NCBI RefSeq assembly: GCF_018861905.1
Contig: NZ_JAHLDU010000009.1
Span: forward strand, 62,001-126,000
Source of the DNA: Clostridium sp. DSM 17811
Lineage (GTDB): Bacteria > Bacillota > Clostridia > Clostridiales > Clostridiaceae
Reading direction: 5' to 3'
Length of the DNA stretch: 64,000 bases
The position numbers were made by a program, and so were the translations under genes. Positions 7,062 to 53,191 of this stretch are shown piece after piece (the stretch's first letter is position 1; each line of letters opens with the position of its first letter). Under the pieces are notes generated by a model. It did no database searches. It had not been told where the DNA came from and saw nothing but the letters and a program-made list of their open reading frames with translations.

Positions 7062-7307
7062 AGCATGAAATTTCTCCGGTTAGCCTTAAAATAAGAGTTT
7101 GAAACGGGAAATTCTATTAAAAAATTCTAGTGCTTTGCAAATATAAAATTCTCTAACACTCACATTCGGCTTTCAGCCGGTTCGCTAGACTTCCTTCTAG
7201 TCAGTCTCACGAGAATTTAATATTGGCAAAACAAGAATTTCTAAATAAAATTTCAATGTTTCGACACTTCTTATTTTAGGCCACTTCCGGAAAAATTTCA
7301 TACTTAT
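7062..7307 (-). repeat. Family A palindromic repeat, copy A1
   Basis: Starts 6 bp after the stop of the binding-protein gene. Ends are inverted repeats (CATGAAATTTCTCC / GGAAAAATTTCATA). The core, reverse-complemented relative to the other copies, keeps CTAACACTCACATTCGGC, GGTTCGCTAG and CTCACGAGAA. Internal hairpins are CGGCT/AGCCG (7167-7179) and AGACT/AGTCT (7187-7207). It is the most diverged copy, and the loops are not AGGAC here. Confidence 0.8.
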
Positions 7308-7407
7308 ATATATATCTGTCACCTAAGGAGACAATCTTGTGTGACATTAAAACAAAGTGATCTAAAAACTAAACATGGATTTTTAAAAAAACTGTGATAT
7401 TGAAATG

Positions 7408-7638
7408 TTTTTCTTGAATTGTGCTAACAAAAGTATATATTGCGTAAAATGCATTTGAACAAGTCGTAATCATTCTTAATTTATTTTAATTACAGATGCG
7501 TCTATAAAAATACATGTTTGAGCATAGCGAGTTTGTATTTTTTAACATCTGTAATTACAATAAATTTTAGAATGACTTGACGATGTGAAAGCATTATAGC
7601 AATATATACCTTTTGTTATAACATAATTCAAGAAAAAA
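7408..7638. repeat. Family B palindromic repeat, copy B1 (long)
   Basis: An almost complete palindrome of about 230 bp. The outer arms are TTTTTCTTGAATT / AATTCAAGAAAAA, then AAAAGTATATATTGC / GCAATATATACCTTTT. The apical loop contains ATGTTTGAGC..AGCGAGTTTG. No coding capacity. Shares ends and apex with copies at 28.2 and 58.9 kb. Confidence 0.82.
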
Positions 7639-7666
7639 CTTTAAATTAATAACTTTCGCAAATAAC

Positions 7667-8488
7667 TCATATCAATCTAGTAGCAAATCTATGTTTAATT
7701 AACCATGTTTTAGCAAAGTCAACTCCATCTTTCATTTCAAATAACGTGCATTCTGCATTACCAAGCATTCCTTTTTGTACATTATAATTATCCTCAAACG
7801 CTTTTCCAATTAGCATGAAATCTTCTGTATCATACTCATAATCCTCAAACCATTTCCAGCACCTATCACCATTCTCAAATATTGCGGCACCCACACGTTC
7901 TTTAGGCATTTCATTTATAAGTGATTCTGAAAGATGAAAACTGGTGCAAGAATTATATCCTACTCCTAGTAAAAGAACTTTTGCTTTTAAATTATACATT
8001 TTGCCAAGAGGTGAATCCATACCAAGCTGTGGAGTCAATGGATGATTTTCAATAATATGCATTGCCTCTTTTCCATTTGCACTAAATGATACATGTGGAT
8101 GATTTGAACGTATTGTGCTAGGAAATGTTCTAAATAATTCCGCAATGCGCCCCATTCCTCGTGTTGGTGAGATTTCGGGGTCAAATGCTGGCATATTATC
8201 ATATATTGTTTGTATCCATTCTTTCGGTACCGGTGGGTTACACCACTGTGCAGGGTCACTCCACTCTCCGCTATGAGCTGGCATAACCAATGTTCCATCA
8301 CTTCCCACTGCATTCATTAATGCAGTTATTACAGTCTGCGCCCCACCACAAACCCATCCTAATTTTGACATTGAAGAATGAACTAATAATATATCACTGT
8401 TATTTATACCAAGTCTCATTAAATCTTGATAAATAGTATTAATAGTATTAGGTTGTCCTGTTTTATTGATTATTTTCTCTTCACTCAT
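7667..8488 (-). CDS. Aminoglycoside N(3)-acetyltransferase family protein
   Basis: A 273-residue member of the AAC(3) superfamily, which transfers acetyl from acetyl-CoA to an amino group. The family signature LLVHSSMSKLGWVCGG lies at about residues 33-48, followed by SDGTLVMPAHS, SPTRGMGRIAE, RSNHPHVSF and LLLGVGYNSCTSFHLSE, all usual for AAC(3)/YokD-like proteins at this length. ATG 8488 has AAAGGAG upstream. It may confer aminoglycoside resistance or act on an unrelated amine; many chromosomal homologues have no known antibiotic substrate. The truncated response regulator just upstream may once have been its regulator. Confidence 0.87.
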   Translation of the reverse strand: MSEEKIINKTGQPNTINTIYQDLMRLGINNSDILLVHSSMSKLGWVCGGAQTVITALMNAVGSDGTLVMPAHSGEWSDPAQWCNPPVPKEWIQTIYDNMPAFDPEISPTRGMGRIAELFRTFPSTIRSNHPHVSFSANGKEAMHIIENHPLTPQLGMDSPLGKMYNLKAKVLLLGVGYNSCTSFHLSESLINEMPKERVGAAIFENGDRCWKWFEDYEYDTEDFMLIGKAFEDNYNVQKGMLGNAECTLFEMKDGVDFAKTWLIKHRFATRLI

Positions 8489-8515
8489 TTATTTTGCTCC
8501 TTTTCTAATTACTCC

Positions 8516-8998
8516 CTATACTTTTGTTTTCATACATATAAAACAATATTTCACTATTAGAAAATAGTATATTTGCTTAATTATACTACTAATCAAAGTT
8601 AATCCGCCAATATTGAAATCTTCAGTAGCAACCACATTATTTGTTCTTCGCAGCATAGCATTTACCTTTGCGAGTAATATTCCCATACCAAAAGGCTTTG
8701 TTATATAATCATCTGCCCCAAGCTCCATCCCTCTAATTTGTTCGCCCTCTTCACTTCTAGCTGAAACAATAATTACTGGAACATTAGATTTATTTCTAAT
8801 GATTTTTAAAAAGTAAAAACCATCAAAGGTTGGAAGGTTAATATCTAATATTATAAGATTAGGCTCTATATGCTGAACATCTTCTAATACATTGTCAAAA
8901 TCATTTAAGAGAATAGTCTTATAATCATAAGCATTTAAATATTCCTGCATATACTTTTTTAATTTTAAATCGTCTTCTATTATTAAAATTTTATTCAT
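8516..8998 (-). pseudogene. Truncated OmpR-family response regulator (receiver domain only)
   Basis: 160 residues. Residues 1-120 are a good receiver domain: acidic pocket IIEDD, phospho-acceptor Asp in ILDINLP (about residue 52) and the conserved Lys in ITKPF. A linker AKVNAMLRRTNN, typical before a winged helix, follows. After FNIGGLTLI the sequence ends in unrelated YYFLIVKYCFICMKTKV, so the roughly 100-residue DNA-binding domain is missing. No partner histidine kinase is nearby. The 3' end lies 27 bp from the AAC(3) gene, so a deletion or rearrangement probably removed the effector domain. It could still act as a single-domain receiver, but I read it as a remnant. Confidence 0.75.
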
Positions 8999-9155
8999 AG
9001 TAAATCTCCTGATTTTATATTTATAATGCTAATTATACCATTTTTTAAAGTGTTGAGATTATATTTGAAATTAAGGATACTCCAATAATTATTCACTAGA
9101 ACACCTTCAAAAAAATAAAAGGCACAAGAAGATTTAAATTTAATGATATAACAAA

Positions 9156-9183
9156 AAGACTGCACTATTTTAAGTACAGTCTT
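9156..9183 (-). terminator. Terminator of the class I aldolase gene
   Basis: Inverted repeat AAGACTG / CAGTCTT (extended by ACT/AGT) with TTTTTG following on the minus strand, about 95 bp after the aldolase stop. Confidence 0.8.
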
Positions 9184-9278
9184 GATTGCCAATATAAGAA
9201 AGTATGAACTATCATTATTCACTTATACTCTTATAGCAGACTAATTTAATAGAGTAACTTCCAGAATAAATACCTACA

Positions 9279-10166
9279 TTATTTGATGGATGCATCATAA
9301 ATTGTTCCAATTGAATTGGATAACATCAAATTGAATTCTTTATCAGTTTGCTTTGCAGTCAATCCTTGCGATAAGGCACGGGAAAAACTAGCTATCAGCC
9401 CGTGATTGTGCGTAAGTTTTTGATTTGCTTCACTTTGAGTGTACCCTCCTGATAAAGCCACAACTCGTACAACATGCGGATTATCCATTAAGTCGTGATA
9501 GAAGTTATCTTCCGTTGGTATTGAAAGTTTAAGCATTACTTTGACGTCTTTATCAAGGAGTGCTAATTGATTAGAAATTTCAGATTTTAATATTTTTTCT
9601 GATTTTCCCTTATCCACGCTGTGGATATCAACCTCTGGTTCGATAATTGGAACCAACCCAGCTTCAAATATTTTCTTGCCAATATCGAACTGTTGCTCAA
9701 CTATTTTTCGAATTCCTTCTGAATTAGCTTCCTTAATGACTGAACGCATTTTCGTCCCAAAAATGTTTTTTTCACTGGCACGTTTTAAAAGGCCTTCCAA
9801 ATTAGGAATCGACTTCATGAGTTGAACGCCATTTTCCATTTCAGCCAGCCCTTTATCGATCTTTAAAAAAGGCACAACACTTTTGTTTTCCCAGAGAAAA
9901 TCAGCAGTAAATTTATCACCAATCTTACGATCCATAGTGTTTTCAAATAAAATAGCACCCAAAATATGCTTTGAATTGAATGTAGGGTTCATTATAATAC
10001 GCGTTCTCATCTCGTGTACTAAATTAAACATCTCTTCGTCATTTGAATAACGGTCTTCCGAAATTCCATACTGCAAAAGCGCCTTAGGAGTACTTCCTCC
10101 ACTTTGGTCTAAAGCAGCAATAAAACCTTTTCCAGCATGCATTTGATTCATTTGTTCCTGATTCAT
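9279..10166 (-). CDS. fda: Class I fructose-bisphosphate aldolase
   Basis: A 295-residue bacterial class I (Schiff-base) aldolase that cleaves fructose 1,6-bisphosphate into two triose phosphates. Visible landmarks are [19 protein letters not shown] near the N-terminus, the [10 protein letters not shown] lysine segment, [11 protein letters not shown], and a C-terminal [21 protein letters not shown] 10166 is preferred over an in-frame ATG at 10184 because AAAGGGGAT precedes it at good spacing. Base composition is visibly richer in G+C than its neighbours, and the family is common in staphylococci and lactobacilli. Acquisition by transfer is plausible. It has its own terminator and is monocistronic. 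Confidence 0.92.
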
Positions 10167-10292
10167 ATAATTATCCCCTTTCATTTTTATTACTAAGTAA
10201 TATCTTTAATTACATTATAACACTTATTAAGTACAGATATACAACTCTATTTCCATCGATAAGGAATTTGAAACACCGTGTTTTTTACTACA

Positions 10293-10664
10293 CTATTCCA
10301 TGCTATTCCATATTGGACATATAAAATAATATAACATTAATGATAATATTATTATAACTACCATATACATAATTGCATTTAATATAAAACTAGCGGAAGT
10401 TATAAAACCTACTACTATTGAAATCAAGCAAGCAGATATATATAAGTACCAGCCTAACTTCTTCCAGCTAAATATTAGTATAAACCCTATAAGTTGAATT
10501 AAAGCTAAAATCATTGTTCTTAATACATAGAAATTAAATAATCCTCCTGGTTGTCTTGAAAAATAATATAAATTATCTTGTATACTTAAACTATATACTA
10601 CTATTAATACCAATAAAATTACTGTTAAACACATTCCCCTTTCTTTGTTTTCCTTGACCACCAT
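10293..10664 (-). CDS. Small integral membrane protein of unknown function
   Basis: 123 residues with about four predicted membrane helices (around residues 11-28, 46-64, 70-88 and 95-113) and a short basic N-terminus. The start has GGAGG seven bases upstream, which supports a real gene. I recognise no family. It lies alone between the aldolase and an empty stretch. Confidence 0.6.
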   Translation of the reverse strand: MVVKENKERGMCLTVILLVLIVVYSLSIQDNLYYFSRQPGGLFNFYVLRTMILALIQLIGFILIFSWKKLGWYLYISACLISIVVGFITSASFILNAIMYMVVIIILSLMLYYFICPIWNSME

Positions 10665-11149
10665 TTATCATCCTCCATAATATTTTGATCAAATATTATT
10701 ATTGATGCCTTTTTTATCTACCTTATAATACTTATGTTACTTTTGTTGATTTTAAACTAAATTATAATAATTTTTTAATTATTATTTAAATAAATATAAA
10801 TTATGTTATCTTTTTATTACCCTATATCCTGCATTAAAGAGGCTTGAAAAAAAACTAGTAGAATCCTATTAGCAAAGTCAAGAAATGCCTAGATTAAAAC
10901 ATAAAAACGTAGAAGCTAAAAAATGCTACTCATTTTTAAATGCTTTAGAATAGAATAAACTCATCCCTCCGGGATTAAAACATATGGAGGGCTAATAGTT
11001 TCAAAATCTACTAATATTCCTAAAAAGGAGAGGACAAAACAACTATTAATTGTTTTGTCCTCTCTTTTAGTCTGATTACAATTTTTTTTCATTACATAAA
11101 CTAAGATTCTGTAACACTCGTTATATACTATCTTTCTCACTACTAAACA
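10665..11149. other. Intergenic stretch with no credible gene
   Basis: Contains a bidirectional terminator at 11028-11064 and then family A copy A2. Short open frames here lack ribosome binding sites and overlap the hairpin or the repeat. Confidence 0.6.
11028..11064. terminator. Bidirectional terminator-like hairpin
   Basis: Perfect 15-bp inverted repeat GAGAGGACAAAACAA / TTGTTTTGTCCTCTC with a loop of seven bases, TTTT on the plus side and TTTTT on the minus side. It could end transcription of the large activase gene beyond repeat A2. Confidence 0.78.
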
Positions 11150-11391
11150 ACAATTTTCTCCGGAGTGACTTGCAACTAGAAATGACAAAACTATTGCAAT
11201 TTCATTTAGTAATTCTTCTTTTGCGAGTGTAAAATTCCCGTAAGACTGCCAGGACGGCAGTCTAGCGAACCCGAGACAGGACGTCGAGTGTGAGCGTTAG
11301 GGGATTTTATACAAGCAAAAGATTAGAATTTCTTAATGCAATTTCTAGTTTCGAGTTCGGTTGCAATTCACACAGGAGAAATTTATACTTT
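11150..11391 (+). repeat. Family A palindromic repeat, copy A2
   Basis: Runs from the degenerate left end TTTTCTCCGGAG to GGAGAAATTTATACTT, ending at the stop codon of the activase gene. The arms AGTAATTCTTCTTTTGC / GCAAAAGATTAGAATT pair. Two internal hairpins have identical AGGAC loops: AGACTGCC/GGCAGTCT (11243-11263) and GAC/GTC (11275-11285). Confidence 0.85.
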
Positions 11392-14300
11392 TTAGTCTAC
11401 TCTTTTGTCACTAGCTGCCTCATCATAAGCAGTTTTTATTTCTTCTTCACTCTTAAGATTTTTAAAAGCAATAGACATCATAAGTTTAATCCTATTAATT
11501 TGATTTACCTCACTTGCACCTGGATCATAATCTATAGCCGTGATATTAGCTCCTTTATTTCTTCTCTTTAATTCCTTAATCATTCCTTTACCTGATACAT
11601 GATTAGGTAGACAAGCAAAAGGTTGTACACAAACTATATTTTTTGTGCCACTTTCAATAAGTTCAACCATTTCAGCTGTTAAAAACCATCCTTCTCCTGA
11701 TTGATTACCTAAAGATATAATAGGAGATGCTATATCCGCTAATTCCTGTATTGTTTTTGGAGGAGTAAATCTTTTACTCTTTTCAAGAACTAATTTCATA
11801 TGTTTTCTATAACTTTCTATATATTGAATAGCCACATTATTTATTATTTTATCAGTTCTACTTTTACCTAAATACTTATATTTAAAGTCAGCATCATAAG
11901 CACAGTATAAGAAAAAGTCAATTAAATCTGGCATAACTGCCTCTCCACCTTCTTTTTCAATAACATCTATAATATTATTGTTAGCTATGGGATCGAATTT
12001 AACTAAAATTTCTCCAACTAGTCCTACCTTAGGTTTAACAATATTTTTGATTTCTAAAAGATCAAATTCAGAGACAATACCAGTTATATTGTTTTTAAAC
12101 TCTTTCTTGTTTCCTTCTGCTACTGCTATCTTGCATACTTTTACCCATTTTTCATAAAGCAAATTAGCCGAACCTTCTACAACTTCATACGGCCTAACTT
12201 TGTATAGTACTCGCATAAGCAAATCACCATAAACTAAAGCCATAAATGATTTCTTAATTATTGGATAACTAAATTTAAAACCTGGGTTTTTCTCAAGTCC
12301 AGCAGCATTTAAAGATATAACTGGTACCTGTGGAAAACCTGCGTCCTTAATTCCTTTTCTAAGGAATCCAATGTAATTTGTTGCCCTACATCCCCCACAT
12401 GTTTGAGAGATTATAACAGATGTATTTTCTACATCATATTTGCCTGACTTAAGAGCAGCAATTAGTTGCCCAACAACTATTATTGTAGGATAACAAGCAT
12501 CATTGTTTACATATTTTAAACCTTCATCTACAGCTTTAGTATCCACTGATGGCAATATTTGTAGATTATATCCTGATGAATTAAATGCTTCCTGTAAAAA
12601 TTGAAAATGTATAGGCGACATTTGTGGGCATAAAATTGTATGTTTCTTTCTCATTTCTTTTGTAAATATAATTTTTTTATCAGGCTCTTGTACTTTGCTT
12701 GGCAATACACCATTCTTATCTCTTTCATAAAGTGCAGCTTTTAAAGATCTAATTCTAATTCTTGCTGCTCCCAAATTATTACCCTCATCAATTTTTAAAG
12801 TTGTATATATTTTACCGTTATCTTCGAGTATTTGAGCAACCTGATCTGAAGTTACTGCATCAAGTCCACATCCAAAAGAATTTAGTTGAATAAGTTCAAT
12901 ATTTGACTCTTTTGATACAAAACTTGCTGCTGCATATAACCTAGAATGATAAACCCACTGATCCACTACTCTTAAAGGCCCTTCAATAATGCCTAAATGA
13001 GCCACAGAATCTTCCGTAAGTACAGGCATATCAAAGTCAGTAATAACGCTTGGAATCCCGTGATTAATTTCTGGGTCTATATGATAAGGTCTGCCAGCGA
13101 GTACTATACCCCTTTTTCCCGTTCTCCTAATATATTCTACAACTTCTTCACCCTTATTTCTAATATCTAATTTAACCTTTTCAGTTTCAGTCCATGCTAG
13201 CTCAGCTGCTATAACAACTTCCTTTTTGCTAATTCCAAAACTAACTAATTCATCTGCTAATCTCTTATCTAGTGCCTTCTTATTATCTAGAGAAATAAAT
13301 GGATTAAGGAACCTAACATTTCTTTCTTTTAATATATCCATATTGTTTTTTATTACCTCAGGATATGAAGTTACTATGGGACAATTATAATGATCATCAG
13401 CATTTTTTCGTTCTTTTTTTTCATATGGAATACAAGGATAAAATATTAAATCTATTCCCTTATTTATAAGGCTCATTATATGTCCATGTGCAATTTTAGC
13501 AGGGTAACAAGCAGACTCTGATGGAATTGTTTCTATTCCCATTTCGTATACCTTTTTAGATGATCTTTGGGATAACTCTACTCTAAATCCTAAATTCGTA
13601 AAGAAAGTAAACCAAAATGGATAATTTTCATATAAATTAAGCACTCTTGGAATTCCTATTGTTCCTCTTTTCGCTTCTTCTTTTTTTAGTGGAATATAAT
13701 TAAATATTCTTTTATATTTATAATCATAGACATTAGGTATTTCCTCTTTTTTGTTACTAAGTCCTAGTGCTTTTTCACAGCGATTACCAGATATAAATTC
13801 CCGATCATTATCAAATTTATTAATTGTAAGAACGCATTGATTAGCACACTGCTTGCATCTTCCCATGGTCGTCTCGATAGCTAAATTGTCCAATTGTTCT
13901 AAGGATAATAATGTAGAAACGCTGCCTTCTTCATCTCTTTCTTTTGCAATAAGTGATGCACCAAATGCGCCCATTAGACCTGCAATATCTGGTCTTACAG
14001 CCTCTCTTCCTGAAATAATCTCAAAAGCTCGAAGTACAGCACCGTTATAAAAAGTTCCTCCTTGAACTATTATCTTTTTGCCCATGTCTTTTGGATCTCT
14101 TATTTTAATAACCTTTTGAAGTGCATTTTTTATTACCGAATAAGAAAGCCCTGCAGATATATCGCCTATAGAAGCCCCTTCCTTCTGTGCCTGCTTAACT
14201 CTAGAATTCATAAACACAGTGCACCTTGAACCTAAGTCAACTGGACTTTTAGCCTTTAATGCCACCTCTGCAAACTCTGCTACTCCCATGTTTAAAGAGT

Positions 14301-15678
14301 GAGCAAATGTTTCTATGAAAGAACCGCAACCAGATGAACAAGCTTCATTTAACATTATACTATCGATTACGCCATTTTTTACTTTTAGACATTTCATATC
14401 TTGTCCACCAATATCTAGTATAAAATCTACTCCAGGCATAAAAAAATCTGCTGCCTTATAATGAGCTATGGTTTCAATCTCCCCAATGTCCACCTTTAAT
14501 GCTGCCATTATTAGTTTTTCGCCATAACCTGTCACTGCCGAATTTTTAATAGTAACACCTTTAGGTATTATAGAATATATATGTTTTAGTGCTTTTCTAA
14601 CTGAAGTTAATGGATTGCCTTCATTACTACCATAAAAAGAGTGCAAAATTGCCCCTTCTTCATCTATAAGTGTAACTTTAGTTGTTGTAGAACCAGCATC
14701 TATCCCCAAATAACAATTTCCAGTATACCCTTCAAGTTCACGTCTTTTAGCCTTATACTTGCTTTGCCTTTCATTAAAAACCTGTAGCTCATTGTCATCT
14801 GCAAAAAGTGGCCTAAATCTACGAACATCATTACTTTTCGCCTCCATCAATTTTGGAAGCTGATTTTTTAAATGTTCAAATGAAATAGTACTATTATCCT
14901 TTGAAGACATTGCAGCACCTACGGCTACAAATAGCTGAGAATCCTTTGGAAAAATAACTTGATCCTCTGTAAGTTTTAAAGTTTCGATAAACCTTTGTCT
15001 AAGTTCAGACAAGAAAAACAATGGTCCACCTAAAAATGCAACATTACCTCTAATTGGCCTACCACATGCAAGTCCGCTAATGGTTTGATTAACTACTGAC
15101 TGAAAAACTGACACAGCTATATCTTCTTTTGCAGCACCTTCATTTAACAAGGGCTGAATATCTGTTTTTGCAAAAACTCCGCACCTAGCAGCTATTGGAT
15201 ATATAGTCTTATAGTCTTTCGCAAGTTCATTAAGTCCAGTTGCATCCGTTTGGAGAAGGGATGCCATTTGATCAATAAATGCCCCAGTACCTCCAGCACA
15301 AGATCCATTCATCCTTTGATCTATCCCTCCATCAAAATAAATTATTTTTGCATCTTCTCCACCCAGTTCTATTGCTACATTAGTTCTTGGTATAATTTTC
15401 TCTATTGCATAAGTACTTGCTATTACTTCTTGAATAAAAGGTATATTCATCCATTTAGCTAATGCTAGTCCACCAGATCCCGTTACAACTATAGTAATAT
15501 CGGCCTCTGGAAAATTATTATAAGCTTCATTTAAAAGCTCTGCGATTGTACTTTTAATATCTGAAAAATGTCTCTGATACTTGCTATAAATCGTTTTTTC
15601 TTGCTCATCTAACACTACTATCTTAACAGTAGTAGATCCTACGTCTAACCCAACGTGTAATATATTTCTCATAATCAT
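11392..15678 (-). CDS. 2-Hydroxyacyl-CoA dehydratase activase-related protein (BadF/HgdC type, DUF2229)
   Basis: A 1428-residue protein with two ASKHA ATPase modules of the BadF/BadG/BcrA/BcrD family. Module 1 (about 1-270) has [10 protein letters not shown] and [14 protein letters not shown]; module 2 (about 320-590) has [10 protein letters not shown] and [14 protein letters not shown]. The Cys residues in these loops hold the shared [4Fe-4S] cluster in HgdC dimers, so this chain may form that dimer internally. A Cys cluster (CKQCANQC), a DUF2229 region (about 660-900) and a dehydratase-D-like C-terminal part follow. Family members of this size are common in anaerobes. Known HgdC proteins use ATP to drive electron transfer into 2-hydroxyacyl-CoA dehydratases; the target here is unknown and no dehydratase gene is adjacent. 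Confidence 0.85.
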
Positions 15679-16130
15679 CTTCTCTTTCCTCGCAAGTTCG
15701 ATTTATTTTTGTTTCTAAAATCTATTATATATATTTATGCGTCTTGATATAAACCCATTATTTTTGAAAATTTTTCTTTCATATATCCTATTTTTAGTTT
15801 ATATATTTTTATTCTTCAAAAACATAATTTATTCTCAAAATCGCAACTTATTAGCATATTCTTTCCATTAATTATATCATTCTAATATTTATTTTACATA
15901 TCAACAAGGTTTAAAAAAAATTATTAGACTAGTATATAACATTATAACTCAATAAATATGATATTTTCAACCTATTTTTACTTAATTACTTTAGAAACTA
16001 ATGTCAATTATCTTTTATTCCTATAAGAATATCTAATAACCACAATTTTGATTTAATAGTATTTATCGTCATCTTATAAAATGTTCATTAACAATACAAT
16101 ATGAGCTCTCATATACTAAACTATAACTTT
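15679..16130. other. Intergenic region between divergent activase and ABC genes
   Basis: AT-rich, no gene seen. It must contain promoters for both divergent genes, but I cannot single out convincing boxes. Confidence 0.5.
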
Positions 16131-16144
16131 GAGGGGATGATAAA

Positions 16145-44247: not shown

Positions 44248-44324
44248 AATTTCACTCCTTTTATATATTGGGACTTATTTTTATACCATATATCTTACTT
44301 AAAGATTTAATTTTATAAATAAAT

Positions 44325-45980
44325 CTATAAATTATTGAATAAATTTTTAAAAAATCCTTTTTTCTTATCAACATTTTTTTTAAAATACAACTTAAAACTA
44401 ACATTCTCAAGCCGATGAATGTCGTACTGCTCAGGATCAATAAAATTTTCTATGTCATTATATCCTGAAGGATTATAAATAATAATATCTACCCCCATAG
44501 AATCCATAAAAGAAAGCATAATACAGTCTTCAAAAGATAAATTCCCATCTTCTTCATTATTATAAATTACAATCTTTGGAACCTCTTCTGGGTAATCAAA
44601 TGATTGCAAGAGTTCTAAAATTTTCTTATCTAAGTTTATTAAGACTGAAAAAATATCTACTTGTAAATCCCTTAAGTCTTCATGTTCAACATTTTTTATT
44701 ATAGGATTAAGGCACAAATCTTTAATTTTTTCTGCCATATTCCTCTGAAGTCCAGACCTAAGATCCTTATATTTCCACCAAGATGAATTAATCATTTCCG
44801 TAGTATTAAACTTTGAAAAAACATTATTGGGATATACTTGATCAAACTTTCCATATTCTAAATGTACAGCATCCATTATAGGTAATTCATTATAGAATTT
44901 AGTAAACTTCTGGGTTATTACCCCGTTAATCTCTTTCCAATAGATATCAATGTTTTCATGTATGCCACAAATTTTAGAGAAAATATTTGGTATAACCACA
45001 GTTGACCCTTTAACATTAAACCCTTCCCTTATGTTTGCTTTTTCCTTAATCCATATATATATTTCCTCATAGGTAGTATTAAGGGTAACTGCCTCCACAT
45101 TATAATCTGCAAACTGCCAAGGTCTGTAAAACCCAGAATCATCTGTATATAAAGTCTTATCAAGCTCCTCCCTCGCACTAAATGCAGTTGTCTTAATTCT
45201 ATCCTCACTATTACTCGGGAAAGGTTTTATTTCCGCCTTAAAATTATAAACAATCTCCCTGGAAAAAGAATTAAATTTATCAATTTCCTTAAATAATCCA
45301 GAATTTTTCGGATTAAAATATAAAATATCACAACCGAGTGTTGATAATAATATTAAATAAAATACCTCTGCTTTTGAAATATCACCATAAAAAATTATCT
45401 TTGGATTAATCCTAGTATAATCGAAATTTTCGAATAACTCTTTAGAATAAGTGTATAACCAATGCATATTATAATTTACAATTAATTTAATATCATCATT
45501 ATCAATTAACTCATTACTCTTAATATAATATTCTATAAGACCCTTTAAATTATTCTTAATTTGCTGGAGCATTACTTTATTAGAAAGCTGAGGGAAAAAT
45601 CCATTATCACTTATTAAATTTATAATTAAAGAAACATCTAAAACTTGCGTCGAAAATACCTTTACCCAGATATCATTCAATACATTTTGCAACCTTATAC
45701 TAATGTCTTTATCCAAGCCTTCACTAAATTTAATATAAGATGACCCAACCTGCCTTAACTCCTTGTCTAACCTATATAGATTTTCATAATACTCTTTCTC
45801 ACTATTTTTTATACCAATAAACCTATAAAAGTAATTAGGGACAGTAACAACATTAGAATTATATTTAAAACCATCCCTTTTATATATTTCTGTTTTTAAA
45901 CTGCTTATTATATCTTCATTAATCTCCAAATTTACGTTATTAATTTCTAAATTATTCAAACTATTCTTTTCCATATTCAC
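44325..45980 (-). CDS. YceG-like protein, partner of TelA
   Basis: 551 residues, soluble. Recognisable YceG segments are SSYIKFSEGLDKDI, YINLISDNGFFPQL-like LIINLISDNGFFPQ, STLGCDILYFNPKN, SWWKYKDLRSGLQRNM and the C-terminal GVDIIIYNPSGYNDIENFI. In Bacillus the yceG-yceH pair belongs to the general stress/tellurite-type cluster; no biochemical activity is known. It is transcribed with telA. Confidence 0.8.
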   Translation of the reverse strand: MNMEKNSLNNLEINNVNLEINEDIISSLKTEIYKRDGFKYNSNVVTVPNYFYRFIGIKNSEKEYYENLYRLDKELRQVGSSYIKFSEGLDKDISIRLQNVLNDIWVKVFSTQVLDVSLIINLISDNGFFPQLSNKVMLQQIKNNLKGLIEYYIKSNELIDNDDIKLIVNYNMHWLYTYSKELFENFDYTRINPKIIFYGDISKAEVFYLILLSTLGCDILYFNPKNSGLFKEIDKFNSFSREIVYNFKAEIKPFPSNSEDRIKTTAFSAREELDKTLYTDDSGFYRPWQFADYNVEAVTLNTTYEEIYIWIKEKANIREGFNVKGSTVVIPNIFSKICGIHENIDIYWKEINGVITQKFTKFYNELPIMDAVHLEYGKFDQVYPNNVFSKFNTTEMINSSWWKYKDLRSGLQRNMAEKIKDLCLNPIIKNVEHEDLRDLQVDIFSVLINLDKKILELLQSFDYPEEVPKIVIYNNEEDGNLSFEDCIMLSFMDSMGVDIIIYNPSGYNDIENFIDPEQYDIHRLENVSFKLYFKKNVDKKKGFFKNLFNNL

Positions 45981-46140
45981 CTAACCTTTTCAATTGTATT
46001 TCCTTGTAAATATAGTTTATTCATCAATAATAATTATACCATATTAAGCCCAAGATTTTTCAATCAAATATATTGGTATGGGAAGTAATATACATATTAA
46101 CATAAATAAACTTATAAAAGAAATCATTAAAATATATTTA

Positions 46141-46180
46141 ACAAAAGAGATACTAAAATTTAATTTAGTATCTCTTTTGT
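46141..46180. terminator. Bidirectional terminator-like hairpin
   Basis: Perfect ACAAAAGAGATACTAAA / TTTAGTATCTCTTTTGT with a six-base loop, U-rich on both sides. Lies between repeat A3 and the start of the yceG-telA operon. Apart from this and repeat A3, 45981-46525 holds no gene. Confidence 0.8.
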
Positions 46181-46268
46181 TGAATACAAATTGAAACATA
46201 ACAAATAATAATTGTTGTATTCTCCTAACACAATCCGCTACGAAATTTTATCATAATAGATTTATTGT

Positions 46269-46516
46269 AAGTATTATATTTCTCAGTAGTGACTTGCAAT
46301 AAGAAATGAAAAAACAATTAAAATTCTGTTTAGTAATTCTTCTTTTGCAGATATAAAATTCTCGTAAGACTGCCAGGACGGCAGTCTAGTGAACCCGAAG
46401 CAGGACGCTGAGTGTTCGCGTTAGAGAATTTTATATAAGCAAAAGATTAGAATTTCTTAATAGAATTTTTTGTTTTGAATTCTTATTGATAGGCACACAT
46501 GAGAAATTTCATACTT
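46269..46516 (+). repeat. Family A palindromic repeat, copy A3
   Basis: Ends AAGTATTATATTTCTC / GAGAAATTTCATACTT; the right end lies 9 bp from the Gx-transporter stop. Hairpins with AGGAC loops: AGACTGCC/GGCAGTCT (46367-46387) and AGC/GCT (46399-46409). Confidence 0.87.
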
Positions 46517-46525
46517 TATCAACAT

Positions 46526-47029
46526 TTATAAACGCGGCAATATTTTTTCTAATCTACTTATTAATATACTAGATAAAATCCCAATAAAGTATCCTGTAAC
46601 AATCGCTGCAATTAATAACACCGGTAAATACACATATATTCTTAAGTCATTAATTATAAATCCTGCTACTAGTAACTGGCCTATATTATGAAATACAGCC
46701 CCACAAACACTAATTGTAGGTATACTTATGTATTTTTTTAGATACTTATAAAGTAGTATCATTATTATATTACTAAGTATTCCTCCAGCAAGACTAAACA
46801 TAAATGCTGGCATACCTCCTCCAAATATAGAACCTAATAAGGTTCTTAAAAACATTATTAGAAATGCCTCTCTCCATCCAAGTAAAATCAATGCAACTAA
46901 GGATATTGAATTAGCAAGACCTAATTTTATACCTGGAAATAACACCGGTATCTGAGCCTCTATTAAATAAATAACTAAAGCTATTGCAACTAATGTACTA
47001 AGCAAAACCATTCTTTTTGTCTTTGTCAT
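46526..47029 (-). CDS. Gx transporter family membrane protein
   Basis: 167 residues with five or six helices: LVAIALVIYLIEAQIP, GIKLGLANSISLVALILLGW and FLRTLLGSIFGGGMPAFMFSL. This is the family once named heptaprenyl diphosphate synthase component I and now called Gx transporter. It lies third after apbE and a NusG-domain-II gene, a common clostridial arrangement. The substrate is unknown; a role with flavin- or quinone-linked membrane redox proteins is inferred from context. Confidence 0.87.
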   Translation of the reverse strand: MTKTKRMVLLSTLVAIALVIYLIEAQIPVLFPGIKLGLANSISLVALILLGWREAFLIMFLRTLLGSIFGGGMPAFMFSLAGGILSNIIMILLYKYLKKYISIPTISVCGAVFHNIGQLLVAGFIINDLRIYVYLPVLLIAAIVTGYFIGILSSILISRLEKILPRL

Positions 47030-47053
47030 ATTTACACCTACATCTTTTTAATT

Positions 47054-47440
47054 TTAAAATGTCCCACCATCTATGCCATCATTTTTTTCTGCCTGAATAT
47101 TAATTATAAGTTTATAAGGTAAACATACAATTATCTCACCCGGCTTTGAAATCCAACCACTTTTTACACATTCCTTGTGAGGACAATCGGCATCTTTTAC
47201 ACTAATACTATTATGCTTAACTGCTATAACATTATAATGACCATTATCCGTTTTTAAAGTGAACTCTTGTGGCTCTACTACCTTACTTAAATCAATAGTT
47301 TTAATTACCGTGCCTGCACGCTTAATAACTGCAATATTTTCTGAACCTTTAATTGAGTTTTTGTATATTAAAGTAGCACCTATTGTTATTAACACAATAA
47401 TCAAAAGTATTATTCCAACTATCTTATCGCCCTTTTTCAT
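47054..47440 (-). CDS. NusG domain II-containing protein
   Basis: 128 residues. One N-terminal membrane helix (about 5-25) anchors a small extracellular beta domain with the conserved DADCPHKECVKSGWISKPGE, followed by IIVCLPYKLIINI. Its Cys residues could bind a metal or form a disulfide. The start overlaps the end of apbE by 17 bp, with AAGGAG inside apbE, so it is coupled. Function unknown; regularly found beside ApbE and Gx transporters. Confidence 0.88.
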   Translation of the reverse strand: MKKGDKIVGIILLIIVLITIGATLIYKNSIKGSENIAVIKRAGTVIKTIDLSKVVEPQEFTLKTDNGHYNVIAVKHNSISVKDADCPHKECVKSGWISKPGEIIVCLPYKLIINIQAEKNDGIDGGTF

Positions 47441-48434
47441 AAGTAAACTCCTTACTTGTTAATTTAAAATTGTCTTTAAGTCCTGGAGTAATGTATACTT
47501 TTTTATCCTTTGTTACAAAAATAGCCTCTACACCTTTAATAGACTCTACCAATTTAAGACCTTTATCGAGCCCCATGATATAAGTACTTGTAGACAGTGC
47601 ATCTCCATCCACTGACTTATCTGATACTATAGTTGTACTTATAAGACTTTGCTGAGCTGGATATCCAGTCTTTGGATCAAATATGTGATGATACCTTATG
47701 CCATCCTTTATAAAAAATCTTTCATAGTTACCTGATGTAACTATTGATTTATCAGTAACACTAATCGTTCCCAAGTATTCACCACGTGTACTTAATGGAT
47801 TTTGTATCCCCACATTCCAATCTTTACCATCGGGATTGCTTCCTATAGTATAAACATTACCACCTAAATTTATAATAGCACTACTAATTTTATTGTTTAA
47901 TAAAACCTTTTTAACCTCATCAGCAGTATATCCCTTTGCTATAGCGCCGAGGTCTATAGCTTGATTCTTTCGTTTTAATTTAACCGTCAAATTTTTCTTA
48001 TCTAAAACAATGTCTTTATAATTAACTAACTTTAATTTATCATCAATTTCAGTTTTCGAAGGTACTCTCTCCTTATCTGTTCCTATACCCCAAAGCCCTA
48101 CAATTGGCTCTATTGTTACATCAAGGGCACCACCAGTTAATTTACTGTATTGAACTGATTTTTCTATTACCGAATATGTGTCTTCACTAAGTTTTTGTCC
48201 TGAAATTCCAGCTTTCGCATTTAATTTAGAAATTTCAGAAGTTTTAACGTTAACAGACATTTTACTTTCTATATTACTTATTCTTTTTAAAACCAATGCT
48301 GTTGCTGTTTCCGCATTTTTACCATATATCTTAAAGTTCATAATTGTCCCCATCATATATGTTTCTTTTTCAACCGGTTCATCATTTGTTGCACAAGATA
48401 TTAAGAATGTTGGAATAATTAATAGTAAAAGCAA
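47424..48434 (-). CDS. apbE: FAD:protein FMN transferase (lipoprotein)
   Basis: 336 residues from TTG 48434. It covalently attaches FMN to Thr/Ser of exported flavoproteins such as Rnf or Nqr subunits. Landmarks are MGTIMNFKIYGKNA, the AIDLGAIAKGYTADEV flavin site and the metal-binding DGDALSTSTYIMG. The lipobox is LISC. As called, the signal peptide lacks its basic N-region. The same frame continues upstream to KKLHKISC, and the natural start position (48461) is ATA preceded by GGTGA. A non-standard AUA start is therefore likely. First gene of the apbE-NusGII-Gx operon. Confidence 0.92.
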   Translation of the reverse strand: MLLLLIIPTFLISCATNDEPVEKETYMMGTIMNFKIYGKNAETATALVLKRISNIESKMSVNVKTSEISKLNAKAGISGQKLSEDTYSVIEKSVQYSKLTGGALDVTIEPIVGLWGIGTDKERVPSKTEIDDKLKLVNYKDIVLDKKNLTVKLKRKNQAIDLGAIAKGYTADEVKKVLLNNKISSAIINLGGNVYTIGSNPDGKDWNVGIQNPLSTRGEYLGTISVTDKSIVTSGNYERFFIKDGIRYHHIFDPKTGYPAQQSLISTTIVSDKSVDGDALSTSTYIMGLDKGLKLVESIKGVEAIFVTKDKKVYITPGLKDNFKLTSKEFTYEKGR

Positions 48435-48751
48435 ACAACTAATTTTATGTAATTTTTTTATGTTAACTCACCGCCTCAAACTTGTCTTTAAATATATTAT
48501 ACCATAAACATAATTCAAATAAACTCCCCACCTTAGCTTGTAATATATGGATTTAACACTAAGTATTATATTAAATTTTCCTTTACTATTTCTAATATCC
48601 TTATACTGTTTAATCCTTTCACTGCCATAAGATGTTATAAATTGCATATATAAAAAACATGTGTTATACTGATAAAAAATTTACAGAATTTAAGTTTTTT
48701 TGAAGTATCATTTTTCTATATATATAATGTACTAATTTATGGGAGGTACTT

Positions 48752-49333
48752 ATGAAAGATACCCTTAAGAATAATTTAAGAAAAAATATGCTCATTATAA
48801 GAAAAAATATGACTGATCAAAGTGTATCCGCTTTTAGTTTGAAAATTATGGACACAATTATCAGCTTACCGCAATTTATAAATTGCAAAAATATAATGTT
48901 GTACATGAGTTTTAATAATGAAGTGGATACATACAATCTTGCTACGTGGTGTCTTAACAATAATAAAACGGTGATTGCACCATATTGCATAAAATCCAGT
49001 CATAAAATAGTACCTTTTATAATAAATAACCTTACAAATGATCTTTCTAAATCTACCTTTGGTATTATGGAGCCAAAATATGATATATTAATGAAGGCAA
49101 ATATTGAAAATATAGATTTAATAATAGTTCCTGGTGTAGTATTTGACGAAGATTGCAATAGAATTGGTTTCGGTGCTGGTTATTATGATAGATTTCTATC
49201 TATGAAAGCAAAGGACACGATTGCTATTGGCATAGCTTATGACTATCAAATAATTGATAAAGTTCCAACTGATGAGTATGATGTGCCGCTTAATTTGATA
49301 ATAACTGAAAAAAGAATAATATCTTTGAAATAG
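48752..49333 (+). CDS. 5-Formyltetrahydrofolate cyclo-ligase
   Basis: 193 residues, the usual size. It converts 5-formyl-THF to methenyl-THF with ATP. The signature GFGAGYYDRFLS is at about residues 146-157, with LRKNMLIIRKNM near the start and NIDLIIVPGVVFDEDCNRIG before the signature. GGGAGG precedes ATG 48752. The HAD hydrolase gene follows after 66 bp on the same strand and may share the transcript. Confidence 0.94.
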   Translation: MKDTLKNNLRKNMLIIRKNMTDQSVSAFSLKIMDTIISLPQFINCKNIMLYMSFNNEVDTYNLATWCLNNNKTVIAPYCIKSSHKIVPFIINNLTNDLSKSTFGIMEPKYDILMKANIENIDLIIVPGVVFDEDCNRIGFGAGYYDRFLSMKAKDTIAIGIAYDYQIIDKVPTDEYDVPLNLIITEKRIISLK

Positions 49334-49399
49334 AAAATTATAAGCATTCTTGTAACATAATTACTATATTTTATTATACTGATGTTGGAGGTGATCCCT

Positions 49400-50128
49400 T
49401 TGGAAAAGAAAATAGCTGCTTTTTTTGATATTGATGGCACCCTTTATAGGGAAAGTTTAATGACAGAGGTATTCAAAAAATTAATTAAAAGCGAACTAAT
49501 AGAAAATGATAAATGGTACAAAGAAGTAAAACCCTATTATGTTAAATGGGATAAACGAATAGGAAATTATGATAATTACCTACTTAAAATGGCTGATATT
49601 TATACCGAGGCTATAATTGGACTTCATAGGTCTCAAATTGAGTTTATCGCTAGTCAAATTATAAAACAAAAAGGAGACAGGGTTTATACCTATACTCGTG
49701 ATAGAATTAAGTGGCATAAGAGTCAAGGCCATATAATTATCACCATATCAGGTAGTCCCATCGAGCTTGTACGTGAAATGTCTATAAAATATGGATTTGA
49801 TGATTACGTAGGAACAAAATATGAATTGAACGAACATAATATGTATACTGGTGGCATTGTTCCTATGTGGGACAGCGTTAGTAAAAAAGCTTCAATAGAA
49901 TACTTTGTGGATAAATATAATATTGATTTGAATAAAAGTTATGCTTACGGAGATACTTCAGGAGATTTCACCATGTTAAAATTAATTCGTCACCCTGTAG
50001 CTGTAAACCCTACCAAAGAACTTCTAATAAATATTCTAGACAATAAGGAGTTAAAAGAGAAGATTAATATAATGGTAGAAAGAAAAGATGTTGTTTATAG
50101 GCTGCTTCCAGAACATATCCACATATAA
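49400..50128 (+). CDS. HAD-IB family hydrolase
   Basis: 242 residues. Motif I is AAFFDIDGTLY (nucleophile Asp and acid-base Asp), motif II TISGSP, motif III Lys in the VSKKAS region and motif IV YAYGDTSGDFTML. This resembles SerB-like subfamily IB phosphatases. TTG 49400 is chosen because GGAGGTGAT lies four bases upstream; the in-frame ATG at 49382 lies before that site. Substrate unknown. Confidence 0.9.
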   Translation: MEKKIAAFFDIDGTLYRESLMTEVFKKLIKSELIENDKWYKEVKPYYVKWDKRIGNYDNYLLKMADIYTEAIIGLHRSQIEFIASQIIKQKGDRVYTYTRDRIKWHKSQGHIIITISGSPIELVREMSIKYGFDDYVGTKYELNEHNMYTGGIVPMWDSVSKKASIEYFVDKYNIDLNKSYAYGDTSGDFTMLKLIRHPVAVNPTKELLINILDNKELKEKINIMVERKDVVYRLLPEHIHI

Positions 50129-50169
50129 CTTTTTCTTTATTTTCGATAAAATATACTTTATTTCACCAA

Positions 50170-50201
50170 AATACTACTATATAATATTATATAGTAGTAT
50201 T
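50170..50201 (+). terminator. Terminator of the HAD hydrolase gene
   Basis: Perfect 32-bp palindrome AATACTACTATATAAT / ATTATATAGTAGTATT followed by TTATTTTTT. Confidence 0.85.
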
Positions 50202-50251
50202 TTATTTTTTGGAATTATCAAACTATATTTTATTTTAAAAGGAGTTATATT

Positions 50252-51331
50252 ATGTTAAAAGATTTATTTATTAATTCGACAATACTAATCTCTTTTATTT
50301 TTATAATTAGCCAAATATTTAAAAATGAAATTTTAAGCTTATCAATATCATATAAATACAAATTTTTATTTGGACTAACTCAAGGAGTCCTAGGTATTAT
50401 ATTAATGTTATTTACCATCCACATTAACCCTAAAGTTATTATGGATCTTCGACATATTCCAATACTACTTGCAGCTTTTTATGGTGGTGGATTTGCCTCA
50501 ATTATTGCTGGCATCACCATTGCACTATTTAGGATTAGCTACTTTGGCGTTAGTACCCCCGCTATAATAGCATCTATTAATATGCTTAATGTTGCAATTG
50601 CTTGTGCTATTATATCAAGGATGAATTTAAAAGGATTTAGAAAATGGATGTATATGAACATTATAAGCTCCTTATTTATTACTTCTACATTCTTATTAAT
50701 TATTAAAAATTCAATAATACTTCGCAATACTCTTATTTATTTTTGGATAGCTTCTATAATTATTGGAACTCTAGCATATTATATTTCAAACTACATGAAT
50801 ATTTCAATCAAATTACTTGATAGATTAGAACATGAGTCAACTATAGATTTTCTTACTGGCTTAAGTAACGTTAGACAATATGATAATGCCCTAAATACAT
50901 CTTTTTTAAATGTTAGAAATAGAAACGAACACTTATCTATTCTTATAATAGACATAGATTTTTTTAAAAAAGTAAATGACACTTATGGTCATTTGGCTGG
51001 TGATGCCGTATTAAAACAATTAGGGATTGTATTATCTACCTCTTCTAGAAGTTTTGATGTTGTATCTAGAATAGGAGGCGAAGAATTTTCTGTTATATTA
51101 CATGATTGTCCAACCAATCAATCCATGGAAGTTGCAGAGCGCCTAAGATCAGACGTTGAACTCAATGAATTTATTCTCCCAGATGAAACTAAAATTAATA
51201 TATGTGTTTCCATAGGCTCTGCCACCTACCCCGATAACGTAAACAATTTAGAAAACCTAGTTCATGAGGCTGATACTGCATTATACGCTGCTAAACATTC
51301 TGGAAGAAACAAAGTATGTCATCCAGAATAA
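50252..51331 (+). CDS. Membrane diguanylate cyclase (5TM-LYT sensor and GGDEF)
   Basis: 359 residues. The N-terminal half has about six helices of the LytS-type 5TM sensor (PKVIMDLRHIPILLAAFYGG, followed by GGFASIIAGITIALFRISYFG). Residues about 195-359 are a GGDEF domain with RIGGEEFSV, an active variant of the motif, and TDFLTGLSNVRQYDNAL at its start. It should make cyclic di-GMP in response to an unknown membrane or extracellular signal. No RxxD inhibitory site is evident just before GGEEF. Own terminator at both ends. Confidence 0.92.
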   Translation: MLKDLFINSTILISFIFIISQIFKNEILSLSISYKYKFLFGLTQGVLGIILMLFTIHINPKVIMDLRHIPILLAAFYGGGFASIIAGITIALFRISYFGVSTPAIIASINMLNVAIACAIISRMNLKGFRKWMYMNIISSLFITSTFLLIIKNSIILRNTLIYFWIASIIIGTLAYYISNYMNISIKLLDRLEHESTIDFLTGLSNVRQYDNALNTSFLNVRNRNEHLSILIIDIDFFKKVNDTYGHLAGDAVLKQLGIVLSTSSRSFDVVSRIGGEEFSVILHDCPTNQSMEVAERLRSDVELNEFILPDETKINICVSIGSATYPDNVNNLENLVHEADTALYAAKHSGRNKVCHPE

Positions 51332-51378
51332 CTTTGCAATGAAAGTTCACTAATACGTTGCTAAACAATTAATAATTT

Positions 51379-51406
51379 TTAAGAGAAGCTAAATGACTTC
51401 TCTTAA
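51379..51406. terminator. Bidirectional terminator between convergent genes
   Basis: TTAAGAGAAG / CTTCTCTTAA, loop of eight, U-rich on the minus side (TTAAAAATTATT). Separates the GGDEF gene from the convergent lipoprotein gene. Confidence 0.75.
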
Positions 51407-51414
51407 TTCATAAG

Positions 51415-51900
51415 TTATTTTCTCATCATAAATACTTCCTTATAATTTATATCCTTGTATACTCTCTCCAATTCATTAATAAGTTTTGCGTCTTTATAGT
51501 CGTACACAGATATAGCAGTGTCTGTACCCCTTTCATACAAACATAACTGATTTTTAGATACTTGAATTGAATATATATATTTACCCGTGTCATCTCTTAA
51601 CCGAATATCATAATCACCATTATTTACTTCTTGATTACCTTCTGTACAACTTAGTGTCTTAATATACTTCACTATACTTTCCATATCTTGTTTTTTTGTA
51701 ACTGTTTTTATTCTACCTAATTCTTTATTTTCACTTCTTATAGTGTAATTTGAAAATTCAATACTTTTAGCTGAGGCTATTGGAATATTCTCAAATGGCG
51801 TTACCATTTGTTTACTCTCTTGTTTTGCACATGCAGTAAGTAAAAAAATTAACCAAACACTAATTACAATAAGTATAAACCTCTTTTTCAAAACAGCCAC
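51415..51900 (-). CDS. Putative lipoprotein of unknown function
   Basis: 161 residues. The signal peptide ends in LLTACAKQ, a lipobox with Cys24. The mature part is a small alpha/beta domain with RLRDDTGKYIYSIQVSKNQLCLYE; no family recognised. It ends at the shared terminator. The ribosome binding site is GGGGGG before ATG 51900 (GGGGGGTGGCTGTTTTG), so TTG 51889 could be the true start. Confidence 0.65.
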   Translation of the reverse strand: MAVLKKRFILIVISVWLIFLLTACAKQESKQMVTPFENIPIASAKSIEFSNYTIRSENKELGRIKTVTKKQDMESIVKYIKTLSCTEGNQEVNNGDYDIRLRDDTGKYIYSIQVSKNQLCLYERGTDTAISVYDYKDAKLINELERVYKDINYKEVFMMRK

Positions 51901-52004
51901 CCCCCCTAAATTTTGTATTTTTGAGTAACCTTATCTAATCATACAGCATATCACTATAATTATTCAATTATTCAACAAAAATATATAAAAATTGCTTCTC
52001 TAAC

Positions 52005-52205
52005 TTAATTCCTTTTTCCCTCTTTAACCTGCACATAAAAAGATACTACTGTCGCTACGAGTATAACAAGGCATACTAAGTCATAAAGAATAGAAAACAT
52101 TGCAGATTTAGGACTATTATCAAAAATACCCCTAAAAAAAAGCATAAAATTAAGGCATAAACTTAGAATCAAAGCTAAGTTTATAGTATATTTCTTTTTA
52201 ACCAA
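52005..52205 (-). CDS. Small two-helix membrane protein
   Basis: 66 residues with two membrane helices (NLALILSLCLNFMLFFRGIF and LYDLVCLVILVATVVSFYV). TTG 52205 is preferred because GGAGGTG stands just upstream; an in-frame ATG at 52220 overlaps that site. No family recognised. Confidence 0.55.
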   Translation of the reverse strand: MVKKKYTINLALILSLCLNFMLFFRGIFDNSPKSAMFSILYDLVCLVILVATVVSFYVQVKEGKRN

Positions 52206-52348
52206 AAGTCGCACCTCCATATATATTAGTTAAATTATATCATTATTGGGAATCTTGTGTATATATTTTTAAAAATGGAATAAATAATTTAAGTCTAATT
52301 TCAAAATTCAAGGTAGTATATTATAGATATACAGATACTTCAAATCAA

Positions 52349-52383
52349 CTTAGGGGTACATAACAATGTTATGTACCCCTAAG
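52349..52383. terminator. Perfect long hairpin, bidirectional terminator-like
   Basis: 16-bp perfect stem CTTAGGGGTACATAAC / GTTATGTACCCCTAAG, loop AAT, followed by AATATTTTT on the plus strand. No gene faces it directly on the plus strand. Confidence 0.7.
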
Positions 52384-52421
52384 AATATTTTTGATACCTG
52401 TTTAAAATCGTATTTATTTCA

Positions 52422-52945
52422 AGTATGTAATTTCTCCGAAGGGCTTGCACTATGAAATATAGAACCTATTGAAATTCAATTTAGAAATTCTTTTTTTACG
52501 AATATAAAATTCTCGTAATCTTTCCAGCGATACAAGCAATGACTGAAAATTTCAGTATGTATTTTCTCCAAGTGACTTGCAATAGAAGTGCAGTAACTAT
52601 TAAATTTTCATTTAGAAATTCTTCTTTTACGTATATGAAATTCTCGTGAGACTCACAGGGATACAAACAATGACTGATAATTTAGTATGTAATTTCTCCG
52701 AAGAACTTGCTATACGAGACGCAGAAGCTATTGAAATTTGATTTAGTAATTCTTCATTTGCGAATGTAAAATCCTCGTAATCTTTCCAGCGATACAACCA
52801 CTGACTGAGAATTTAGCATGTAATTTCTCCAAAAGACTTGCACTATGAAATGTAGAAGCTATTGAAATTCAATTTAGAAATTCTTTTTTTACGAATATAA
52901 AATTCTCGTAAGACTCACCGGGATACAAACAGTGACTGATAATTT
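52422..52945 (+). repeat. Tandem array of four 131-bp units derived from family A
   Basis: Units start at 52422, 52554, 52684 and 52815, each opening AGYATGTAWTTTCTCC, followed by GAAATT..ATTTAG.AATTCTT, TCTCGT and a GATACAA....TGACTG tail. A fifth start at 52946 leads into the complete element. Units 1 and 4 resemble each other, as do unit 3 and the fifth start, suggesting stepwise duplication. Confidence 0.9.
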
Positions 52946-53191
52946 AGTATGTAATTTCTCCGAAGAACTTGCTATACGAGACGCAGAAGCTATTGAAATT
53001 TGATTTAGTAATTCTTCATTTGCCTATATAAAATTATCGTAAGCTTGCCAGGACGGCAAGCTAGCGAACCTGAGGCAGGACGCCGAATGTGAGCGTTAGA
53101 TAATATTATATTTGCAAATGATTAGAATTACTTAACCAAATTTCCTAGTTTCAAGTTCGTTTGCAAGGTCATAGGAGAAATTTCATACTTT
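52946..53191 (+). repeat. Family A palindromic repeat, copy A4 (complete element after the array)
   Basis: Ends AGTATGTAATTTCTCC / GGAGAAATTTCATACT. Hairpins with AGGAC loops: AGCTTGCC/GGCAAGCT (53042-53062) and GGC/GCC (53074-53084). The right end is 4 bp from the ribH stop codon. Confidence 0.9.

Follow-up and report, generated by a model that had tools for sequence, protein, structure and literature searches.

TwoAYGGAY RNA (Rfam RF01731) is the described system that lies closest to the element analyzed here. It has an entry in a table of Weinberg et al., 2010 (PMC2864571), structural remarks on it are given in PMC11661157, PMC7657543, and PMC11701678, Rfam lists its type as cis-regulatory and places it in clan CL00106, Csr-Rsm protein binding, and CsrA binding was proposed for it in the RMfam paper (PMC4333381). 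The accessible portions of the 2010–2025 literature on this RNA give no established function, and no description of TwoAYGGAY as mobile was recognized in them or in the excerpts available on clostridial miniature inverted-repeat transposable elements (MITEs), dispersed repeats, and palindromes, and on clostridial RAYT proteins, the Y1 transposases associated with repetitive extragenic palindromes (REPs). Here we analyze a stretch of 64,000 nucleotides from Clostridium sp. DSM 17811 (positions 62,001 to 126,000 of contig NZ_JAHLDU010000009.1; hereafter the window), which contains four full copies of a palindromic repeat, and only these four according to a genome-wide covariance-model search. 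We propose, with a probability of about two in three, that the copies are mobile palindromic repeats of the MITE or REP-like kind, non-autonomous, which spread in clostridial genomes and have TwoAYGGAY as their apex. What looks new is the setting of this known motif, at the apex of an apparently mobile palindromic repeat of ~246–311 bp; the motif appears to occupy a mobile setting that had gone unrecognized and to follow a strong placement rule.

TwoAYGGAY at the apex of a dispersed palindrome

The identification comes from copy 4 (52946..53191, plus strand), in which positions 52993..53146 of the same strand match RF01731 with 68.1 bits, above the gathering score of 43. The initial annotation of the window had known of no described element that fits and had itself named an Rfam match as the outcome that would tell against this; copy 4 gives such a match, and the element is therefore not undescribed. 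Two structural features of the Rfam family are present, paired hairpins whose loops read A-GGA and a stem that contains tandem G-A pairs: hairpin 1 (53042..53062, plus strand) reads AGCTTGCC-AGGAC-GGCAAGCT with CGTA directly before it, and hairpin 2 (53064..53094, plus strand) has the loop AGGAC and two tandem G-A sites in its stem. All four copies described in the initial annotation, copy 1 (7062..7307, minus strand), copy 2 (11150..11391, plus strand), copy 3 (46269..46516, plus strand), and copy 4, lie where it had placed them, with the ends, stems, and loops that it had given. AGGAC forms both loops in copies 2–4, as claimed, and copy 1, said to carry other loops, belongs to a second, GGC subfamily whose second hairpin, GGC-TGAAA-GCC, is without AGGA.

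Copies 1–3 stayed below detection with RF01731 (they did not reach E 1), and the Rfam model therefore covers only part of the family. A search of the whole genome with RF01731 returned two places, copy 4 (L003) and L004, and a scan of 20 loci of this genome at E up to 1 gave further copies above the gathering score at L004, L007, L008, L011, and L014, the passing matches in L018 and L022 being the L011 and L007 copies over again; with copy 4 included, 6 members of an initial collection of 27 copies therefore pass. From the 27 copies we built a covariance model, R1. It located the element at no fewer than 32 places in the genome (better strand, E < 1e-13; 150 of 5,799 first-look candidates scored) and in 17 of 17 genomes of the genus, this one included. 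A DNA search of the same genome gave at least 53 matches (40 of 83 candidates scored).

The palindrome of copy 4 is far from chance: its folding energy is –95.4 kcal/mol, whereas shuffled sequences average –48.6 (z –11.0), and the opposite strand folds equally well (z –11.5). The structure is also conserved. Among 66 matches to R1, one of them itself a member of the model and all aligned by a fit to the model that favors it, standard pairs fill 97.7% of the cells, as opposed to 34–52% after sliding by 1–3 columns. Changes on both sides are seen in 31 of 40 pairs, so the paired substitutions around fixed loops first noted in the window copies hold in the larger set. The loop AGGAN is found in hairpin 1 of 58 and in hairpin 2 of 55 of the 66 matches while the pairs of the stems change type, 63 of the 66 likewise retain a tandem GA/GA site in the inner stem, and CGT stands just before hairpin 1 in 27/27 and 63/66 copies, extended to CGTRA in most copies. 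Inferred origins of G-U outnumber those of A-C in the hairpins (17 to 6) and slightly in the arms (15 to 13; overall p = 0.09). This excess hints, without proving it, that of the two strands it is the TwoAYGGAY strand that folds.

Paired changes of this kind might also be made by template-switch correction within a DNA palindrome, that is, by a mutational process and not by selection on structure. Hairpin 1 of L009 has been lengthened on both sides, one tandem G-A site of copy 3 is now Watson-Crick, and the arms have little excess of G-U over A-C, all of which would fit such correction, and some of the double changes could have arisen in this way. However, a process of correction acting by itself should remove mismatches, and the persistence of the tandem G-A site in nearly all copies and of AGGA loops in most, while the stems change, therefore counts against it. 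We consider template switching improbable as the general explanation.

A separate module of 48–50 nt, consisting of CCTCTGGGTAGTTCTCTGGGGG and an AACAATT/AATTGTT hairpin, is nested after hairpin 2 in 7 of the 27 copies of this genome; carriers include L018, L020, L022, L023, L029, L031, and L032, and the ribH element of the related genome G074 (L166). In some copies of relatives the same module lies inside the loop of hairpin 1.

Signs of mobility and spread

Movement is well supported in Clostridium sp. KNHs214, a member of a related genus, where the element is 311 bp long, has the inverted ends GATTAWCCCACAA / TTGTGGGTTAATC, and is present in at least 40 copies that are 95–100% identical (40 of 358 candidates scored). 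Short direct repeats of the sort produced by transposition flank 27 of 30 examined copies and are missing from 3; they measure 7 bp in 13 copies, 8 bp in 11, and 6, 9, and 11 bp in one copy each, as counted with shifts of up to 4 nt allowed and no shuffled control, in a register that is nearly always the same. Of the features of a MITE, terminal inverted repeats, short length, the lack of a transposase gene of its own, and many copies are found. The dispersed element with conserved structure put forward in the initial annotation is supported, and relatives of it also show signs of mobility; the annotation had not noticed its number of copies in the genome, the Rfam match, the closeness of every window copy to a stop codon, or a tandem array of half-elements beside copy 4.

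By exact pattern the element was found, among others, in C. frigoris, C. lacusfryxellense, C. tagluense, C. algoriphilum, C. psychrophilum, and C. bowmanii, as well as in KNHs214 and Haloimpatiens lingqiaonensis. The window itself probably derives from the C. estertheticum/tagluense group, which is cold-living. At E 0.001, RF01731 matched at least 19 of 206 genomes of the family and at least 35 of 391 of the class, 26 of these 35 with two or more matches. These counts are lower bounds because few candidates per genome were scored (only 7 in the class survey), and the genome of the window itself gave zero matches in both surveys. Within the genus, ten places with the element are known in G076 and 15 copies are listed for G074, of which 14 lie at 3.82–4.45 Mb of 4.76 Mb, on one side of the origin, a stretch that was picked after seeing the data. 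In G143 and G139 (L389–L395) the shared unit extends to 600–720 nt in five locus pairs, and several of these units end close to where a second open reading frame (ORF), a convergent one, has its stop codon, like a repeat mosaic that fills the gap.

Individual sites differ in occupancy among relatives. The ribH gene, the host gene of copy 4 in the window, was recovered from 16 of the 17 genus genomes and its downstream site was read by eye: a full element is present in seven (G000, the genome of the window, with G074, G077, G078, G079, G082, and G083), arms only in two (G076 and G081), partial remnants in two (G073 and G080), and no element in five (G072, G075, G084, G086, and G087). The L008 locus carries the element in G077, G074, and G078 but not in G079, and remnants are left at the L007 and L009 loci in G074 and G077. 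No clean pre-insertion site for a window-type copy was seen at the ribH, L007, and L009 sites of relatives, where remnants or unrelated downstream DNA were found instead; a joined-flank search for empty sites covered 4 of 16 prepared copies.

Which enzyme would move the repeat bears on one of two alternatives raised in the initial annotation, RNA or single-stranded DNA recognized by a transposase of the Y1/RAYT type. With such a transposase the element would be REP/REPIN-like and travel as folded single-stranded DNA. Y1 ORFs of ~305–335 aa occur in nine of nine genomes checked, CGT precedes hairpin 1 almost invariably, and a RAYT-like gene at 4.12 Mb in G074 sits amid the 14 clustered copies; according to PMC3733652, REPs are found predominantly downstream of coding regions. 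The two Y1 ORFs scanned against NF047646 (REP_Tyr_transpos) scored 50.2 and 46.6 bits, below the cut-off of 80. The suggestion was not borne out at the loci themselves: although all nine genomes have Y1 ORFs, 13 RAYT-like loci from eight of them (none from G174) are without a copy in flanks of up to 1.5 kb, and the sole flank match adjoins a Y1 ORF of 146 aa. According to the same paper, not every RAYT gene is flanked in this way. The tag at the hairpin foot is neither GTAG nor CGTC, and the direct repeats of KNHs214 do not fit Y1 transposition as we understand it; they may point to a transposase of another type. We regard movement by RAYT as very doubtful. Five of the RAYT-like loci, in at least four genomes (L405, L411, L421, L422, and L423), lie near a cobalamin riboswitch, and vertical inheritance at one site is therefore suggested for these genes.

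Placement at gene ends and the folded strand

Every copy in the window lies 0–9 nt from a stop codon. Copy 1 starts 6 nt past the stop codon of a gene for an NMT1-like protein (PF09084; 6018..7055, plus strand), copy 2 abuts the stop codon of a gene for a 1428-aa protein, a BcrAD/BadF ATPase with DUF2229 (11392..15678, minus strand), copy 3 is 9 nt off the stop codon of a gene of the heptaprenyl diphosphate synthase component I family (PF07456; 46526..47029, minus strand), and copy 4 is 4 nt off that of ribH (lumazine synthase, PF00885; 53196..53657, minus strand), which another riboflavin gene adjoins. We measured this rule at the 3' end of the TwoAYGGAY strand, with a convergent stop codon within 45 nt, on mechanically called ORFs of at least 80 aa, a few of which are short (82–109 aa) and may be spurious. 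In the genome of the window a convergent ORF has its stop codon close to the right (3') end of 26 of 27 copies, the end being placed at –34 to +30 nt relative to it, and in a second genus set 58 of 65 copies lie within the limit, at –10 to +44 nt (65 of 66 rows were used, the match L094:1908-2029 being the L008 copy). Near a convergent stop codon fell 8.1% of 24,196 random non-ORF points, which, unlike the elements, could not overlap a gene end (by up to 60 nt). A third count, 22 of 25 copies at a gene end, shares ten places with the 65-copy set and was not added. The eight exceptions include L018, the first L135 copy, and L094, which are the second elements of inverted pairs behind another copy, and the second L162 copy, which follows another copy in the same direction.

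In other genera of the family the right neighbor is convergent in 17 of the 18 loci that have one, and by eye the stop codon lies 65–81 nt from the core in 9 of 12 copies of G143 and G139, where the element's own edge supplies stop codons in more than one frame. Among distant RF01731 matches a convergent right neighbor is found in 12 of 16 loci, as compared to 64% of random points; this bias is not significant, and the stop-codon rule is therefore not shown for the whole family.

Two further readings were rejected. One is that replication sets the orientation: in G074, whose contig by eye starts with dnaA, 10 plus and 5 minus copies lie in one chromosome half, yet 14 of the 15 face a gene end. 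The other is that gene and element form a cassette: ribH, the host of copy 4, is a riboflavin gene of the ordinary kind, and clustering by sequence divides the 87 convergent right-hand genes of the two sets into 52 clusters, of which 33 have a single member, many of the proteins being cut at the edge of the stretch retrieved.

With a copy right after the stop codon, the 3' untranslated region (3' UTR) of the host mRNA would contain a long hairpin formed by the reverse complement. The copies may accordingly be domesticated 3' UTR modules, mRNA stabilizers or terminators, that inserted at random and were kept only after stop codons and in one orientation. In accordance with this, position and orientation are nearly fixed in the genus, homologous host genes bear a copy in more than one genome, and a T-tract like that of an intrinsic terminator by eye adjoins the far end of most of the 12 copies in G143 and G139. 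On the other hand, the ribH site retains remnants only in four of 16 genomes and nothing in five, the conserved loops and G-A pairs lie on the strand opposite to the mRNA, and by eye no U-tract follows window-type copies directly, separate terminator-like hairpins being located further downstream in several loci. Domestication is possible, though we think it rather unlikely as the full account.

The strand question also bears on a role as CsrA-binding RNA, sponge or regulator, in which the AGGA hairpin loops would bind CsrA and the copies would be regulatory RNAs. The conserved AGGA loops, the Rfam clan, and the proposal in the RMfam paper all favor this role, the genome of the window encodes CsrA (G000:C2:436358), and a CsrA match is present in 19 of 19 family genomes that carry RF01731 as compared to 172 of 206 overall (Fisher p = 0.048, not corrected for kinship). 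However, TwoAYGGAY lies antisense to the host gene, copy 4 has no more promoter-like matches around it than expected by chance (5 compared to 4.4 in shuffles, both strands), the subfamily without AGGA in hairpin 2 has also spread, and a gene for a small RNA (sRNA) leaves the flanking direct repeats unexplained. G076, which is 99% complete and has no CsrA match, has its ten places with the element. Hairpin 2 has AGGA in two of nine full copies of G076 and in 12 of 15 of G074 (identical rows merged, and L383, which is without hairpins, left out of G076), a comparison confounded by subfamily make-up. As the explanation of the copies we judge a role as CsrA-binding RNA improbable; a mobile repeat could, however, bind CsrA as well.

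The window has several further features. A tandem array of left half-elements and spacers with a unit of 131 bp (52422..52945, plus strand) runs into copy 4, its half-elements breaking off near hairpin 1, and similar half-elements follow ribH in G077 and G078. Free-standing palindromes at 52349-52383, 11035-11057, and 46197-46219, beyond three of the four copies, resemble the hairpin of the nested module. Rfam also matches an FMN riboswitch (57147-57260, minus strand) and a T-box leader (5593-5821, minus strand).

Proposed mechanism and comparison with known systems

We now put forward a hypothetical mechanism for the mobile repeat. The moving enzyme would act in trans, and a trans-acting protein would recognize the folded TwoAYGGAY strand through its AGGA loops and G-A pairs; CsrA is a candidate for this factor, although the repeats persist in a genome that has no CsrA match. 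In this genus the site right after a stop codon would be favored, either when the repeat inserts or when it is retained. More tentatively, and with less confidence than in mobility itself, the palindrome may insert in a single orientation at the 3' ends of genes by sensing the termination of translation or transcription (stop codon, terminator, or mRNA end), with the structured strand antisense and TwoAYGGAY serving as a pair of recognition hairpins and not as a CsrA-titrating sRNA.

Several observations weigh against the repeat being mobile in the way proposed. No transposase linked to it was found (13 RAYT-like loci in eight genomes; 40 of 358 KNHs214 candidates), and no parent transposon for the KNHs214 repeats was seen among those 40 candidates. 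By eye, the window-type element showed no target duplication, either at the copies of its own genome or at the ribH, L007, and L009 sites in relatives, so the outer ends of this type are not firmly fixed and its transposition is deduced from relatives with different outer ends. In KNHs214 a convergent stop codon lies within 45 nt of only 3 of 30 copies, as compared to 84 of 92 in the genus, and the two types may therefore spread in different ways. The remnants at several sites suggest weak upkeep, and the placement counts include copies at orthologous sites more than once, as the clustering of the 87 right-hand genes indicates.

If TwoAYGGAY copies are the apices of apparently mobile repeats, the reading of such Rfam matches changes, and the CsrA proposal becomes directly testable. 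The strict bias in stop codon and orientation suggests that DNA at the ends of genes is subject to a rule of targeting or else to strong selective filtering.

The essence of the comparison with TwoAYGGAY RNA is that the long outer stem, the two hairpins with GGA loops, and the tandem G-A pairs are shared, whereas here the loops are mostly the five bases AGGAN and the motif caps a dispersed palindrome that is longer, has inverted ends, and in one genus is flanked by direct repeats. Bacterial MITEs are likewise non-autonomous, with inverted ends, flanking direct repeats, and many near-identical copies, as in KNHs214, but the present repeat has no parent transposon that we could find, no visible target duplications in its window type, and a conserved apical RNA-like structure. 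The REP/REPIN and RAYT system (PMC3733652) also comprises multi-copy extragenic palindromes that lie mostly downstream of genes and may move in trans; the present repeat is far longer, with two hairpins in series and a nearly uniform orientation to the host gene, has no GTAG or CGTC tag, and is not linked to the RAYT-like genes searched. DNA-uptake repeats in terminators and integron attC sites are also repeated palindromes right after stop codons, and attC sites further share the fixed orientation and the folding of one strand, but no cassette array was seen at the loci read (integrases were not searched for), and the gene that hosts copy 4 is an ordinary one of riboflavin synthesis.

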